Virus record (IMG/VR): IMGVR_UViG_3300044984_001861
Location: 1 to 22,003 of that record
DNA length: 22,003 nucleotides
Origin: a virus
Strand: one strand, 5' to 3'
Position numbers and translations under genes: made by a program. The notes under the pieces were generated by a model, which worked only from the letters and a program-made list of their open reading frames with translations, was not told the origin of the DNA and did not search any database. Below, piece by piece: positions 6,479 to 16,897 of this stretch (position 1 is the first letter of the stretch; each line of letters begins with the position of its first letter).

Positions 6479-6828
6479 CGCAGAGCCAAGACCGCGCAGT
6501 AACGGTCGCTTTTGCCAATAGCGGAGAGTTCCGTTCTGATTTCTGCGCGTGGTTGTTTGACAACCTACCCATCTACAAAGAATTCGAGCGCCAGTCTCTT
6601 GCCGTCGCAGCCCGTCGCAGCCATTACGGCGCCAGAACCGTCATGGAGGTTGTTCGCCACAACAGCATCCTGATTGAATCAGATGGCGGCTGGAAAATCA
6701 ACAACAACAAGACGCCAGATTGCGCGCGTCTGTTTGCGATGCTGAACCCCAATCATGCGGACCTGTTTTCGTTCCGTGATTCGTCGGCTCGGATTGCCTA
6801 CGTTCCTGAAGATCGGAGGGCTGCGTGA
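6457..6828 (+). CDS. Conserved-type phage early protein, function unknown
   Basis: The 123-residue product starts MKTKTISTQSQDRAVTVAFA. Its middle holds a helix-turn-helix-like stretch (RSHYGARTVMEVVRHN), and its end holds a KINNNKTPDCARLFAMLNPN motif followed by HADLFSFRDS. I recall the pattern of YGARxxMEVxR with KINNNxTPxxARLF and PxHAxLFxxR from phage early regions, but I know no function for it. AGGAG lies 11 nt before the ATG. It follows cII and precedes the replication genes. Confidence 0.65.
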   Translation: MKTKTISTQSQDRAVTVAFANSGEFRSDFCAWLFDNLPIYKEFERQSLAVAARRSHYGARTVMEVVRHNSILIESDGGWKINNNKTPDCARLFAMLNPNHADLFSFRDSSARIAYVPEDRRAA

Positions 6829-7037
6829 TGAATATAGATTTTATTGAGCGTCTACGCGCTGCCGCCGCAGAGCATGGCGCTGTTGCCAATTTGCTTGAGG
6901 CGCTTGATGCCAGCTTATTGATTGACGATAACGGAAACAAAGAGATAGTTGGTGATGACGAAAATATCTCTTTACTGAAAGATGCGCTTATTGCCGCTCA
7001 GTTCTCTGCTTATGACCGGGAGGACGATCATGGCTAG
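6828..7037 (+). CDS. Small acidic protein of unknown function
   Basis: This 69-residue protein begins MNIDFIERLRAAAAEHGAVA and ends in a strongly acidic tail (DREDDHG). It looks helical, with no motif that I recognise. GGAGGG stands 8 nt before the ATG, and the ATG overlaps the previous stop as TGATG. An in-frame GTG directly before it is less likely. It overlaps the replication gene by 8 nt, so it is part of the early operon. Confidence 0.6.
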   Translation: MNIDFIERLRAAAAEHGAVANLLEALDASLLIDDNGNKEIVGDDENISLLKDALIAAQFSAYDREDDHG

Positions 7038-7953
7038 AGCCAGAAATATTAAGCCGGGATTCTTTAGGAATGCTGATCTGGTTGAGCTTTCATTTGAGGC
7101 TCGTCTGTTGTTTATTGGTATTTGGACGCTTGCAGACAGGGCTGGTCGCCTTGAGGACCGCCCAAAGCAAATAAAAATGGAGCTATTCCCTGCTGACAAC
7201 ATGGATTGCGATGGTTGCATACAGTCACTAGCGAACATCGGAATGGTCAAGCGGTACGAAGTTGATGGAAAGCGGTATTTGCAGGTTACAAACTTCGCTA
7301 AACACCAGAGTCCGCACCGCGATGAAAAGGCAAGCACGCTGCCTGATTACAACGAATCTAGTGCCAATTACAACAAGGAACCAGACTTGCACGGTGCAAG
7401 CACTGTGCAAGCACTGTGCGACAAAGATGCAAACACCGGGTCAATCGCGCTGATTGCTGATTGCTTGATTGCTGATTGCTTAGAAACAAAACCATCAGCA
7501 GCAGCATTAGCTGAACTACCTGTAGCGGAACAACCAGCCAATGCTGCTGCTGGTTTTGCTGACGCCGTTTTGTTCAGGGCTATCGAAATCACCGCTCTGC
7601 TGACCAAGCGAGGCGCTGCCCTACAAGCCAGCGACCCGAGGGTTAGGGGATGGGCTGAGCGTGGCGTTACCGATACGCAAGCCCTGCAAGCCCTCGACGT
7701 GGCGAATGAGCGACGCCAAGAGCGCGCAGATCATCGCCCTATCAACGCCGGATTGCTTGACTCGATCCTTGGCGACATAACCAAATTTTCGACAAATGCC
7801 CGCGCTTCTCCGGTCCGAATGAGCCATGCAGACCAGTCGAAGCTCGCCGCATCGCGGGCAATTTTCGGAACCGAAGTTGAGGGGAAAACAAATGACCAGA
7901 ACTACAGAATCATCGATGTCACACCAGCCGCTGCCGCTGCCTTGGGTTGCTAA
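7030..7953 (+). CDS. Replication initiator (lambda O-like)
   Basis: The protein has 307 residues. The N-terminal 110 match the winged-helix initiator type common in phage O-like proteins: ARNIKPGFFRNADLVELSFE, ARLLFIGIWTLADRAGRLED, then a YEVDGKRYLQVTNFAKHQSP block. A low-complexity middle (about 120-180) is encoded by the repeat-rich DNA expected of an origin. The C-terminal part likely contacts the helicase loader encoded next. It would bind the origin inside its own gene and recruit P and host DnaB. GGGAGG lies 7 nt ahead of the ATG, which supports 7030. A longer frame starting at 6982 has no such site. Confidence 0.75.
   Translation: MARARNIKPGFFRNADLVELSFEARLLFIGIWTLADRAGRLEDRPKQIKMELFPADNMDCDGCIQSLANIGMVKRYEVDGKRYLQVTNFAKHQSPHRDEKASTLPDYNESSANYNKEPDLHGASTVQALCDKDANTGSIALIADCLIADCLETKPSAAALAELPVAEQPANAAAGFADAVLFRAIEITALLTKRGAALQASDPRVRGWAERGVTDTQALQALDVANERRQERADHRPINAGLLDSILGDITKFSTNARASPVRMSHADQSKLAASRAIFGTEVEGKTNDQNYRIIDVTPAAAAALGC
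7386..7480. repeat. Origin-type repeats inside the O-like gene
   Basis: Three elements cluster here. The first is a palindrome, CTTGCAC-G-GTGCAAG (7386-7400). The second is two tandem copies of GTGCAAGCACT (7394-7404, 7405-7415) plus a partial third. The third is two tandem copies of TGATTGCTGATTGCT (7451-7465, 7466-7480), each containing two TGATTGC units. A+T-richer DNA follows (7481-7500). Lambda ori has iterons inside O next to an A+T-rich segment, so this is the likely replication origin. Confidence 0.65.
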
Positions 7954-12679: not shown

Positions 12680-12956
12680 AGCCAAAAGCATCAAACGTGA
12701 AATTAACGCATTTGAGGTCGGTGTCGGGATAGGCGGTGAGGCGGCAACGACGGCGCTTGCATTCGATGTTCTCCAAGTTGTTACGGCCGTCATCGGTTTC
12801 GGATACTCAGGGCTCGGAAACTACGCTGCGGCACTATTGGTCGAACTTGAGAAAGACCTTCTCGGCATGACTGAGCCGCAAGGTTGCGAAGAGTGCAACA
12901 AGTGCGACCCGTGTTGCGAGGGGCTCATTGACCCACAAAACACATCGCCGTCGTGA
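12672..12956 (+). CDS. Small protein with hydrophobic centre and Cys-rich tail
   Basis: The 94-residue product starts MNKAKSIKREINAFEVGVGI. A hydrophobic, Gly/Ala-rich middle (about 25-60) may be one weak membrane segment or a buried helix pair. The C-terminal tail carries a cysteine cluster, GCEECNKCDPCCEG. AAGGAG lies 6 nt ahead of the ATG, which makes this a firm start, and the gene overlaps the previous one by 8 nt. It is the last gene before about 1 kb without coding sequence. Function unknown. Confidence 0.6.
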   Translation: MNKAKSIKREINAFEVGVGIGGEAATTALAFDVLQVVTAVIGFGYSGLGNYAAALLVELEKDLLGMTEPQGCEECNKCDPCCEGLIDPQNTSPS

Positions 12957-12987
12957 CTGTAGAGTTATCGAATAAATAATAAATGTT

Positions 12988-13017
12988 ATTTCATGCAAAT
13001 GAAATCAATGATATTAT
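12988..13017 (+). promoter_or_regulatory. Candidate late promoter with palindromic operator
   Basis: In a short A+T-rich island, ATTTCAT (12988-12994) and ATGAAAT (12999-13005) form an inverted repeat around GCAA. TTTCAT (12989-12994) lies 17 bp before TATTAT (13012-13017), giving a weak -35 with a good -10. The place corresponds to lambda pR', upstream of the late genes. No better promoter was found for the RNA that follows. Confidence 0.4.
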
Positions 13018-13388
13018 TTCAAAAGTTTAAGTGTTGTTGCTGGGTTGTGGTTGTTGTAGACATAGTCCCGATTGCGTGTCGGTGCCGAATTTTGGCGATG
13101 CTCCCCCCCTTACCTTTCAGGGGAATCCTGATCTGACAGGCAACGCGCTAATCAGATGCTGACGGGTAAGCCGTAGTTTTACTCGGGAAGGCGATTGTTG
13201 GTAGCAGTCGCTTACCCGAGTGGGGCTGTTACTTGATTCACCGCGACTCAGAACGTGGACGAATCTGGCGCTGTTGCAAGGTGGGCGACACACACCAAGG
13301 CGAAACAAACGGGCGCTTCCCGTAGATGGGCTTTGCAACGGGGCCATACCATTAGAGTGCAAGGATGCCGGCCTTACAGGCTCTGACC

Positions 13389-13692
13389 GCTGGGAAAGAC
13401 CAGCACTGAATTTTTGTGGGGTGTATCGATTAGCAAATGCCAACTGCTGCCCCTGTAGGTTGGATGGCTGTGCACATATCAGGTCGGGAACGCCGGTCTG
13501 CCAGTAAGCCGCACAGGGAACTAGGCGTGACTGATGGAGAGACATCACAGAATTTTTCGTCGGACGGCGGCAACGCTGAGAATTGTTTGCGGGATTCCGA
13601 TAGCGCAAACACTGAATGCTCACCAGACTTGTGGTGCTGTCGTAAGCATCAAGCAGAGCCTTGAAATCGCGTGGCAGCCGGGAAAGACCGGC
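13389..13692 (+). repeat. Two hairpins with identical GAAAGA loops and a compensatory stem change
   Basis: GCTGG-GAAAGA-CCAGC (13389-13404) and GCCGG-GAAAGA-CCGGC (13677-13692) share the loop and four of five stem pairs. The middle pair is T-A in one and C-G in the other, a change that keeps pairing. A short direct repeat of type CAC(T/A)GAATTTTT also occurs at about 13404 and 13546. These repeats argue for a modular RNA rather than a dead gene. Confidence 0.6.
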
Positions 13693-13821
13693 ACCAACAA
13701 TCAACCGTCTTGCCTGACGGTCGACGTGGCGACCTTAAATGCCCGGTGGTTTGCTGTGATGTTCCACCTTTGGTTGATGTGCGTCTTAACGCAGCGGGGT
13801 AGGGCGGTTGATTGTTGGTGC
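13691..13821 (+). repeat. Perfect 17-bp inverted repeat competing with the tRNA-like fold
   Basis: GCACCAACAATCAACCG (13691-13707) is the exact reverse complement of CGGTTGATTGTTGGTGC (13805-13821), with a 97-nt loop holding three smaller hairpins. The 3' arm contains the 5' acceptor strand of the tRNA-like element, so both folds cannot form together. The 9-mer CACCAACAA occurs both at 13692-13700 and at 13864-13872, and each copy can pair with the single TTGTTGGTG at 13812-13820. Confidence 0.8.
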
Positions 13822-13871
13822 AGCACAGTTGGTAGTGCCTTGGGTCGCTGGTTCGAGTCCAGCCACCAACA
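13814..13871 (+). ncRNA. tRNA-like element lacking exactly the anticodon arm
   Basis: Acceptor GTTGGTG (13814-13820) pairs perfectly with CACCAAC (13864-13870), followed by discriminator A. D-stem GCAC/GTGC (13823-13826, 13835-13838) closes a canonical loop AGTTGGTA. The T-stem GCTGG/CCAGC (13847-13851, 13859-13863) closes TTCGAGT. The variable loop GGGTC (13842-13846) is intact. Only CTT (13839-13841) stands where position 26 and the 17-nt anticodon arm should be. It cannot decode, but has the acceptor and T-arm that RNase P and tRNA-processing enzymes recognise. No CCA is encoded. It lies at the 3' end of the structured region. Confidence 0.75.
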
Positions 13872-13902
13872 ACTCCTTTGGTCGTGACGCCAAGATAAAG
13901 GC

Positions 13903-13956
13903 TCTCGGCTAGGTATGCGAACCAAAAAGCCGTGCCGCATACACGGCCTGCCGAGA
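13903..13956 (+). promoter_or_regulatory. Hairpin leader before the KilA-N gene, two alternative folds
   Basis: Outer arms TCTCGGC (13903-13909) and GCCGAGA (13950-13956) enclose GTATGCG (13913-13919) with CGCATAC (13936-13942). An alternative hairpin GCCGTG/CACGGC (13929-13934, 13942-13947) excludes the inner stem. The structure ends about 25 nt before the start codon and leaves the AAAGGAG site free. It may set message stability or separate the upstream RNA from the coding message. Confidence 0.55.
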
Positions 13957-13981
13957 CCCCTTCTATGCAAAGGAGTCGCAA

Positions 13982-14806
13982 ATGAATCAAATCACCCAAT
14001 ACGAACCAGTCACCATTGCCGGCGTGTCTATCCGCCATGATGCCGAGGGGCGCTACTGCCTGAATGACTTGCATAAGGCAGCCGGTAACGAAAATCGTCA
14101 CCAGCCAGCTTTTTTCTTAAAGCGTCCCGAAACGATTGAGCTTGTTTCTGCGCTTTCCAACTCTTCCACACAGAAGAGTTGTGATCCGGTCGCTACGAAG
14201 TCAGGAAAGTATGGAGGCACCTACGTTGTCAAAGAATTGGTCTATGCCTACGCCAACTGGATCAGCCCGGTTTTCTATCTGCAAACAATCCGCACCTTCG
14301 ACGCTGTTGTAACCGGCAACTTCGACGCGCTTCCTCCCGCTATGGCGGAGCGCATAGGCCAGATGATTGAATCCGTAATCACAAGCCAGATCGTCATGAA
14401 CCGCCTTGGCGGCATGGTGAAGTCGATATTCAACAAGAACGCAAACGACATTCTTGTCGCCAATCTTCCCGGGCTAGTTCATGGCGAGCTTGCCAAGCAC
14501 CAGATGCTGCTGCGCAAAGGCGAGACGCCGGGGCAGGTCTGGAATCGCTGGAAACTGGAAACCAAGGGCATGCGTGGTGGCGCTAACTGGCTTGGAAACC
14601 TGCTTGCCTCAAAGGGCTGCCAGATGGACGGTAAGGGCGAGGCAGGGGGTAAGCCCGTTCGTCTGTTCGATCCTGACAAGTGCGATGCCGTTAAGGCGCT
14701 GATCATGGAAGAGGTCGAGGCGTACATCAACAAGCGCCTGAAGCGTGGCGTGCAGGGCAACCTGTTTGTGCTCGTTCCGACTGCGGCAGCAAGCGCGAAC
14801 GCCTAA
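13982..14806 (+). CDS. KilA-N domain DNA-binding protein
   Basis: The 274-residue protein begins with a KilA-N domain: VTIAGVSIRHDAEGRYCLND, LHKAAGNENRHQPAFFLKRP, then KYGGTYVVKELVYAYANWIS and PVFYLQTIRTFDAVV, up to about residue 110. KilA-N domains bind DNA and occur in phage antirepressors and regulators. The C-terminal half has a conserved-looking block (GETPGQVWNRWKLETKGMRG, then GANWLGNLLASKGC) that resembles the C-terminal parts of KilA-N/antirepressor proteins. AAAGGAG lies 7 nt before the ATG. It is the first gene after the structured RNA and directly precedes the small terminase gene. A role as antirepressor or late regulator is inferred. Confidence 0.85.
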   Translation: MNQITQYEPVTIAGVSIRHDAEGRYCLNDLHKAAGNENRHQPAFFLKRPETIELVSALSNSSTQKSCDPVATKSGKYGGTYVVKELVYAYANWISPVFYLQTIRTFDAVVTGNFDALPPAMAERIGQMIESVITSQIVMNRLGGMVKSIFNKNANDILVANLPGLVHGELAKHQMLLRKGETPGQVWNRWKLETKGMRGGANWLGNLLASKGCQMDGKGEAGGKPVRLFDPDKCDAVKALIMEEVEAYINKRLKRGVQGNLFVLVPTAAASANA

Positions 14807-14808
14807 GC

Positions 14809-15330
14809 ATGGCTAGACCGCTCAAGTGCAATCCCGACGCGGTTCTTGCTGATTGGAAAACCGGCAAGTACAGCGAGCGAGACCTCGCCACAAAGCACAA
14901 GGTGTCGCCATCAACTGTTCACAAACTTGTCGCTGGTGTTGAGAAAACAATAGAAGCGTTAGCGAGCGAAACAGTTCAAATAAAACAACAGGTTGCGAAT
15001 CTTAACGAGCGGGAAAGAAGCAATTACGAGCAACTTGTTCAGGAGAAATTGGTCGCTAAAAAGTTCTTCGATGGCGCCCACATGCTGACGGCCAAGATTG
15101 CGGTGATGAAACTGCAGGCTGACAAAGGGAATGCCAGCTACCAAGACCTGAATGCCGCCGCCAATGCCATCACCAAGGCGCAGGAGGGTGTTATGGGCAA
15201 GCAGCCGACCATCGCTATCCAAAACAACAACGGCGTGACCATCGACCACGAATCGCAGACGGTCGCCAAGTCTGGCACGCGCGCCGAGCGTATGCAGCGG
15301 GTCAGGGCGCTGCTGGAGTCCAATGTTTGA
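14809..15330 (+). CDS. Terminase small subunit (putative)
   Basis: The 173-residue product starts with an HTH typical of small terminases (MARPLKCNPDAVLADWKTGK, then SERDLATKHKVSPSTVHKLV), which binds the packaging site. A helical oligomerisation region at about 50-125 follows. The C-terminal tail (TIAIQNNNGVTIDHESQTV) leads to a basic end, RAERMQRVRALLESNV, that would contact the large subunit. It is called mainly from its HTH and its overlap with the large-subunit gene by 8 nt. The ribosome-binding site is weak, so translation may depend on the KilA-N gene, which ends 2 nt upstream. Confidence 0.75.
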   Translation: MARPLKCNPDAVLADWKTGKYSERDLATKHKVSPSTVHKLVAGVEKTIEALASETVQIKQQVANLNERERSNYEQLVQEKLVAKKFFDGAHMLTAKIAVMKLQADKGNASYQDLNAAANAITKAQEGVMGKQPTIAIQNNNGVTIDHESQTVAKSGTRAERMQRVRALLESNV

Positions 15331-16897
15331 TGACGTCCTTGACCGGGATATTGTCGCCTACAATCTGCTCACGGATTTTGGGTACTTTGTCCGGCACTTC
15401 TTCAAGGCCCAATACAACAAGTCGTTCATCGTCGCGCCGTATCAGCAAATAATCTTTGATGCGCTTGAGGCAGTTGTTCGTGGCGACACGCGCCGGCTGA
15501 TCATCAATATCCCGCCCCGGTACGCCAAGACGGAGATTGCGATCAAGATGTTTGTTGCTTGGTGCTTGGCGAACAATCCGGCTGCCAAGTTCATTCACCT
15601 CTCGTACTCCGATGACCTTGCTCTGGATAACTCGTCGGCGATCCGCGACTTGATTAAGTCGGCTGAGTTTCAGAGCCATTTTCCGTTTTCGCTTCGCGCT
15701 GATTCTGATTCTAAGAAAAAGTGGTTTTCTGAGGCTCGCGGCGGTCTGTACGCAACGGCCGCAGGCGGCGCCATTACCGGCTTTGGTGCTGGTGCTATGG
15801 GTCGCGTGTATGAGGGCACGGGAAGCCCGGCCGATGGCTTTGCTGGGGCAATCCTTATTGACGACCCGATCAAGCCTGACGACGCCTTCTCGGACACCAT
15901 GCGCGACCGGGTCAATCGCCGATTTAACAACACGATTGCCTCGCGTACCAATTCCCCCGAAACCCCGATTATCGTCATCATGCAGCGCCTGCACGAAAAC
16001 GACATGACCGGCTTCTTGCTCAACGGGGGAAGCGGCGAGGATTGGGAGCATGTCTGCCTGCCTGCAATCACGGATTACAACGAGGCGCTTTGGCCTGAAA
16101 AGCACTCGATTGAAGTCCTCCGCAAGATGGAGGAGACAGACCCCTACACTTTCGCCGGCCAATACATGCAGACGCCCTCTCCGCTGTCGGGTGGCATCAT
16201 CAAGCCCGACGACAACATCCAGATCATTGATGCGGTGCCGGTTGGCCGCATTGAGTGGGTGCGTGGCTGGGACTTCGCCAGCACCACGGATGGCGACTTT
16301 ACCGCTGGCCTCAAGTTGGGGCTCATGGAGGATGGACGGCTGGTCATTGCCGACTTGGTGCGTATTCGTGTTGGTCCGGACGAGCGCGATGCCGCTTTGG
16401 TTAACACAACCGCCCGCGATGGCTATCAGTGCAAGGTTTCAATCCCGCAAGACCCCGGGCAAGCTGGCGTCACTCAGATCAAGTACCTGACCCGCAAACT
16501 GGCGGGCTACTCTGTCAAGTCCTCGCCTGAGTCGGGGAGCAAGGTTGTCCGTGCCGAGCCGATCGCCAGCCAGATCAACGTCGGCAATGTGATGATGGTC
16601 AAGGCAGATTGGAATCAGCAATTCATCAACGAATGCCGCATGTTCCCAAACGGATCATTTGACGACACTGTTGATGCCTTGTCGCGCGCCTACATGCTAC
16701 TGATCGGCCGCAATCCTTCAGAAATATTCATTCCGAACACAGACAAGCCGTCCGACATGATTGCCGCCCAGCTTGCCGCCGCTGGCACCTGTGGGCGCTG
16801 TTCTGCCTACGATGCGGCGACCGGGCTGTGCAAAGAGAGTTTTGGGATTACGGTCGGGGCAAATGATCCGGGCTGTCATTTGTTTGTTTCTGCGTAG
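15323..16897 (+). CDS. Terminase large subunit (packaging ATPase and nuclease)
   Basis: The 524-residue protein has an N-terminal ATPase with the deviant Walker A PPRYAKTE (64-71), coupling region FIHLSYSDDLALDNS, and Walker B ILIDDP (177-182). It ends in an RNase H-like nuclease beginning at RGWDFAS with Asp near 317 and continuing TTDGDFTAGLKLG, plus FPNGSFDDTVDALSRAY near the end. It cuts and pumps phage DNA into proheads. An unusual addition is the last 37 residues, with four cysteines (CGRC, then LCKESF and GCHLF) that may bind metal. GGAG stands 4 to 5 nt before the ATG. Confidence 0.9.
   Translation: MFDDVLDRDIVAYNLLTDFGYFVRHFFKAQYNKSFIVAPYQQIIFDALEAVVRGDTRRLIINIPPRYAKTEIAIKMFVAWCLANNPAAKFIHLSYSDDLALDNSSAIRDLIKSAEFQSHFPFSLRADSDSKKKWFSEARGGLYATAAGGAITGFGAGAMGRVYEGTGSPADGFAGAILIDDPIKPDDAFSDTMRDRVNRRFNNTIASRTNSPETPIIVIMQRLHENDMTGFLLNGGSGEDWEHVCLPAITDYNEALWPEKHSIEVLRKMEETDPYTFAGQYMQTPSPLSGGIIKPDDNIQIIDAVPVGRIEWVRGWDFASTTDGDFTAGLKLGLMEDGRLVIADLVRIRVGPDERDAALVNTTARDGYQCKVSIPQDPGQAGVTQIKYLTRKLAGYSVKSSPESGSKVVRAEPIASQINVGNVMMVKADWNQQFINECRMFPNGSFDDTVDALSRAYMLLIGRNPSEIFIPNTDKPSDMIAAQLAAAGTCGRCSAYDAATGLCKESFGITVGANDPGCHLFVSA

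Follow-up and report, generated by a model that had tools for sequence, protein, structure and literature searches.

GOLLD and ROOL are large structured phage RNAs found near tRNA genes, and cryo-electron microscopy has shown that both form homo-oligomeric cages (PMC12286853). In phage HK022, the put RNA (putL, putR) forms two stem-loops (PMC9378689), and the human RNA MALAT1 is matured by RNase P at its tRNA-like element, mascRNA, from which its 3′ end arises (PMC11693755). In this study, we have explored positions 13060-13871 of the IMG/VR virus record IMGVR_UViG_3300044984_001861, a linear record of 22,003 bases analyzed at its full length (hereafter the window). A first-pass annotation had proposed that this region encodes a structured RNA, either a divergent member of the GOLLD and ROOL classes or a new class of giant phage RNA. 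Our results establish that it is a conserved, non-coding, modular RNA locus that ends in a tRNA-like element, and we identify the modules of the array with high confidence. They are marked by a short hairpin, hairpin A, defined by a UGACA-type flank, a stem of 4-5 bp and a GAAAGA or GAGAGA loop. The closest parallel in architecture is given by MALAT1/mascRNA and MEN-beta/menRNA (PMC11693755), in which a long non-coding RNA is likewise followed by a tRNA-like element with an altered anticodon part and has an RNase P site at the 5′ end of that element, a site that in the phage array is predicted. Unlike the phage array, these RNAs are eukaryotic; the two are unrelated by descent, and we identified a triple helix in no part of the array.

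The window contains three copies of hairpin A on the plus strand, with loops starting at 13394, 13537 and 13682 (a spacing of about 144 nt), and these account for the repeated modules suspected from the sequence. The part of the array from 13384 to 13551 has homologues in Achromobacter pulmonis (locus L211; 81% over 102 nt, nhmmer E 1.5e-14), in viral contig L332 and in viral record L333, which reads like L211 there; the changes among them preserve pairs, and no coding family matches the region. Copy 1 (13384-13404, UGACC-GCUGG-GAAAGA-CCAGC) differs from the L332 copy by such changes, and the GAUG/CAUC stem of copy 2 (13528-13546, UGACU-GAUG-GAGAGA-CAUC) becomes GCCG/CGGC in both L211 and L332. 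Around copy 3 (13672-13692, UGGCA-GCCGG-GAAAGA-CCGGC), 28 of 28 nt are identical in a Burkholderiales genome. The structured unit that separates copy 1 from copy 2 (13405-13527, plus strand) is homologous in L211 and L332 and has helices with two-sided changes. When the window, L332 and L211 were folded together with RNAalifold, 14 of the 37 predicted pairs had changed on both sides yet still paired and 93.7% of cells paired, for a structure derived from these same three sequences; slid-structure controls gave at most 41% of cells paired and at most two two-sided pairs. Within the reach of three sequences, the covariation check asked for in the first-pass annotation thus came out in its favor.

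Folding energies agree with a structured plus-strand RNA. The segment 13060-13873 folds at -329.4 kcal/mol on the plus strand, with a z-score of -4.9 over 20 shuffles and of -3.5 in a second shuffle run, as compared to -1.2 on the minus strand and values from +0.5 to -2.7 in seven coding controls of equal length. In 200-nt windows, excess stability is seen in 13060-13359 and in 13660-13859, and the middle, unremarkable by energy, is backed by covariation instead. The 5′ domain (13060-13383, plus strand) folds strongly (z -3.3 and -4.5 in 200-nt windows) and includes a long near-perfect hairpin around 13174-13228, and nhmmer gave no homologue for this domain. No believable gene occupies the gap that opens where the small genes end, near 12956, and closes at the KilA-N gene (13982), as had been noted at first reading: for 13060-13871, five open reading frame (ORF) products had no match in PHROGs, the three searched in Pfam had none, and the minus strand holds the longest open run, of 205 codons.

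Beyond the central unit, nhmmer tied the 3′ part of the window to locus L026 through UGACAGCCGG-GAAAGA-CCGGC-ACCAACA together with the tRNA-like element. A scan for the ACCAACA-flanked hairpin found 27 viral contigs, including a few apparent chance matches without the stem, and wider scans for hairpin A reached at least 120 viral contigs and at least 120 genomic contigs. Among the matches listed, the taxa include Pseudomonadota, Bacteroidota, Clostridia, Spirochaetes, Cyanobacteria, Actinomycetota and others, and named phages that carry it are mEp390, ESP2949-1, Medea1, Pokken, P7641, Alexa and Pag-Yong1. Since the scan patterns force pairing, the stem was assessed in 41 sites picked by their unpaired UGACA and GAAAGA alone, pattern matches being excluded. 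Full stem pairing occurs in 23 of these, against 3.9 in shuffles. For the 21 distinct sequences, pairing holds in 76% of cells, as compared to 52% in shuffles, and covariation scores 0.595 where shuffles give 0.19; none of 500 shuffles reaches either the pairing or the covariation value, and sliding the helix abolishes the covariation signal. Hairpin A is thus conserved as a covarying RNA in a test that is not circular. It is absent from Rfam 15 and undescribed in the open-access literature that we searched, and an Rfam scan of 14 hairpin A loci matched tRNA as the only family. Upstream of hairpin A, mEp390 (L068) and P7641 (L071) have a conserved stretch, GGACTGGAAGAGTTACCACTTGGAGACGGTCCT, in common.

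The 3′ end of the array had been described as tRNA-like from its letters, and this description held. Positions 13814-13871 (58 nt, plus strand) match RF00005 at 41.1 bits, with the acceptor (13814-13820/13864-13870), D (13823-13826/13835-13838) and T (13847-13851/13859-13863) arms all paired at tRNA spacing. Only 8 nt separate the D stem from the T stem; because the anticodon arm is missing, we call the element tRNA-like rather than a tRNA, and for the same reason it cannot decode. It has no encoded CCA, and ARAGORN does not report it as a tRNA. A pattern search found the same exact deletion of the anticodon arm in 21 viral contigs, unrelated phages included. Terminase genes lie downstream of anticodon-less elements of this kind in Polaribacter phage Danklef_1, L029, L031 and L032; in L025 the order is reversed, with the terminase gene upstream. 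Two further loci combine such elements: viral contig L027 (13552-12856, minus strand) has an alpha-type tmRNA match, a tRNA and an anticodon-less tRNA-like element in series, and an Acinetobacter venetianus plasmid (L075, 1568-3330) carries hairpin A, an anticodon-less tRNA-like element and a second tRNA-like element in 1.8 kb for which the gene table, itself incomplete, lists no gene.

The placement of hairpin A relates it to tRNAs. Among the 325 instances listed, 35 are followed within 1-9 nt by the start of a tRNA or tRNA-like element with a perfect acceptor and T stem, as compared to an expectation of 0.43 derived from other points within these loci (about 80 times chance), and the commonest spacing is 3-6 nt. 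The same comparison gave no excess of tRNA 3′ ends upstream of hairpin A. The density of tRNAs and tRNA-like elements is about 10 times higher near hairpin A than farther off, and at many sites ARAGORN calls canonical tRNAs (Asp, Thr, Lys, Pro, Tyr, Ser, Asn, Phe). The array resembles phage tRNA arrays in that hairpin A often sits before ordinary phage tRNAs, and differs from them in the non-decoding element of the window. In cellular contigs, 7 of 10 large genes near a tRNA-abutting hairpin A match phage families. For hairpin A loci outside open frames of 120 codons or more, the gaps that hold the hairpin have a median of 776 nt among the matches listed, and the next gene lies on the same strand in 112 of the 141 intergenic cases listed and on the opposite strand in 29.

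Upstream of the tRNA-like element, positions 13693-13715 (ACCAACAAUCAACCGUCUUGCCU) and 13797-13819 form stem B, a plus-strand helix of 23 bp. The outer GUUGGU of its 3′ strand (13814-13819) doubles as the 5′ strand of the tRNA-like acceptor, so that it has two possible partners, 13693-13698 or 13865-13870; competing pairings, which the first reading had suggested, are indeed present. A closing helix is present right behind hairpin A about three times as often as in controls. Most of the acceptor 3′ strand recurs in the nucleotides that follow hairpin A in the window, L026, L045, L046, L050, L061 and L145; it recurs partially in L171 and L182, and not in L086 or L228. We also considered whether stem B always accompanies hairpin A and rejected this, as it belongs mainly to the ACCAACA subset.

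In related loci, a tRNA-shaped element can stand in the same place, in either a canonical form, as in the window, or a kissing-loop form. The latter has the loops AGGCUGAU and A[G/U][A/U]UCAG[C/U]A, in which GCUGAU is complementary to AUCAGC. Of 20 sites picked by these two loops alone, 19 have both arms, and in 17 of the 19 a perfect acceptor of 7 bp stands at tRNA spacing; the 5′ strand of the acceptor takes nine different sequences. The arms and acceptor of this kissing-elbow element are therefore observed; the kissing pairs themselves we infer, because the search had fixed the loops. In L026 (4160-4208) and L042 (3978-4026), the kissing-elbow element encloses a canonical D-arm/T-arm pair at the place where a tRNA has its anticodon arm, and downstream of the L026 element comes a terminator-like hairpin with a run of T.

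Based on these results, we infer a path from transcription to function for the locus. The array would be a non-coding late leader, transcribed together with the KilA-N/terminase operon, whose repeating units carry hairpin A (UGACA-stem-GAAAGA) and whose last unit ends in the anticodon-less tRNA-like element, where RNase P would cut; we consider this reading somewhat more probable than its negation. The features that RNase P recognizes are the acceptor and the T arm, and the anticodon is dispensable to it. Formation of the acceptor should therefore lead to a cut at 13813/13814; this cut would free the upstream array from the downstream mRNA and be followed by trimming after 13871. With the maturation of MALAT1 as the precedent, processing by RNase P is modestly favored as the mechanism. 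A gate on the cut is possible, as completion of stem B would engage the 5′ strand of the acceptor instead. The products of the array might then act on host tRNA or the translation machinery. Three observations weigh against this scheme. Energies that leave out tertiary contacts favor the closed form, with -106.2 kcal/mol for complete stem B as compared to -94.7 kcal/mol for the tRNA-like element with a shortened stem. A recognizable tRNA abuts only about 1 in 10 copies of hairpin A. Finally, L211 and L332, the closest homologues of the central unit, have a protein gene next instead of a tRNA-like element, which is therefore not obligatory.

The alternative that survives best, although we regard it as unlikely, is that the region is a leader acting in cis: hairpin A would be a put-like antiterminator or an anti-Rho element that modifies RNA polymerase, letting transcription cross long untranslated, tRNA-rich stretches into the operon, and the other folds would be mere spacers. 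The prevalence of downstream genes on the same strand (112 of 141) fits this, as do the positions of hairpin A in mEp390, Medea1 and ESP2949-1, where it follows repressor genes or precedes terminase genes, and the copies of L332 and L211 shortly upstream of a gene start; a phylum-wide spread would also be in keeping with a partner as universal as RNA polymerase. The HK022 put RNA (PMC9378689) offers the likeness of phage leader hairpins, which in the case of hairpin A could target a universal host factor. However, hairpin A is absent from the examined region of HK022, the phage that carries putL and putR (24000-34000, compared by motif and eye only), so that an identity of hairpin A with put, which we had considered, finds no support in sequence comparison. 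Hairpin A, in addition, adjoins tRNAs, and antitermination leaves the precise spacing of 3-6 nt before tRNA 5′ ends unexplained.

It is improbable, to a clearly greater degree, that the locus acts as DNA, in packaging, in replication or as an att site, or that it is the remnant of a host tRNA gene. The ends of tRNA genes are common att sites, the array lies upstream of the terminase gene, and a similar match in Lactococcus phage D7138 is near an integrase, all of which would suit a DNA element. Against this, the loops are conserved and the stems change on one strand in a manner that preserves pairs and tolerates G-U, the placement before tRNA 5′ ends depends on orientation, and we found no integrase among the genes adjoining 13060-13871. 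The precise loss of the anticodon arm, moreover, recurs across unrelated phages.

A divergent GOLLD or ROOL RNA, the first option of the first-pass annotation, is largely refuted, and we give it very little weight. Size, position and the neighboring tRNA-like element spoke for it. Nevertheless, neither the Rfam model of the conserved 3′ domain of GOLLD (RF02032) nor that of ROOL (RF03087) matches 12900-14010 up to E 10, whereas the same models do detect GOLLD in L029 and ROOL in L031 and L320/L321, and the central unit has homologues of its own. The window array consists of small modules by sequence and predicted pairing, with repeated short hairpin A units that define neither family, and a single ornate fold is not apparent in it. 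In L029 (GOLLD, 6773-7223) and L031 (ROOL, 7926-7297), an anticodon-less tRNA-like element lies directly 3′ of the large RNA; this is a co-occurrence and not a rule, because the loci were chosen by their tRNA-like elements. Among 200 genomes we found two copies of ROOL, neither with an adjacent tRNA-like element, and therefore we do not claim the element as a feature of ROOL; these two unselected copies also speak against a ROOL identity for the array. The second option, a new class of giant phage RNA, stands in substance, and the region is better described as a modular array of small conserved units with a tRNA-like element than as a single giant molecule. As for a protein gene on the minus strand at 13117-13704, open over 195 codons, we find it scarcely credible, as it has no PHROGs or Pfam match and the homologous unit varies by pair-preserving changes on the plus strand.

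The neighborhood of the array corresponds to the expected position between early genes and the KilA-N/terminase genes, as Pfam and PHROGs assignments bear out. Downstream on the plus strand are the KilA-N domain gene (13982-14806, PF04383, E 1.3e-19) and the terminase large subunit (15323-16897, phrog_38, E 1.1e-99), the latter most similar, with about 50% identity, to those of Bordetella and Acinetobacter phages. Between the array and the KilA-N gene, Rfam detects an int-alpA RNA (RF02996, 13902-13973, plus strand; 41.0 bits against a gathering score of 35.8), a small RNA that could be the leader of the KilA-N gene (start codon 13982); we treat it as a neighbor of the array that could at most be a candidate member. 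The terminase relatives L002-L017 lack the array RNA, a pattern search found no relatives of the KilA-N gene in viral contigs, and blastn of the whole region against phages and plasmids matched the tRNA-like element only, or nothing. In L211/L333 and L332, the arrays stop shortly before a lectin-like or FGE-sulfatase-like gene; the genes concerned (L332 690-1541, minus strand; L211 1139-1588, plus strand) gave FGE-sulfatase (E 7.7e-06) and a Lcl_C match below the cut-off. These folds serve receptor-binding or retroelement-diversified proteins. A diversity-generating retroelement, suspected from the lectin-like genes, was set aside, as the phage record L333 has no reverse transcriptase.

In conclusion, our results give a handle on the large non-coding gaps of phage genomes, most of which are unexplained, through the UGACA/GAAAGA signature and its covarying stem, present in at least 120 viral contigs as well as in prophage-like loci of many phyla. 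That hairpin A sits directly before tRNA 5′ ends is a regularity open to bench experiments. We propose, tentatively and as a possibility still short of likely, that the GAAAGA hairpin serves as a mark on the 5′ side of RNAs with a tRNA shape, the anticodon-less and kissing-elbow forms among them, in a phage RNA system spread over many phyla. These RNAs might serve as decoys or switches on the host tRNA machinery (RNase P, the ribosome or tRNA-sensing defenses), in which the acceptor strand would alternate between the tRNA fold and a stem upstream of it. If the kissing-elbow mimics are real, phages would rebuild the tRNA shape by other pairings, and therefore the elbow itself would be the selected feature. 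With like tRNA-like elements beside one GOLLD and one ROOL, a shared maturation of giant phage RNAs becomes testable.
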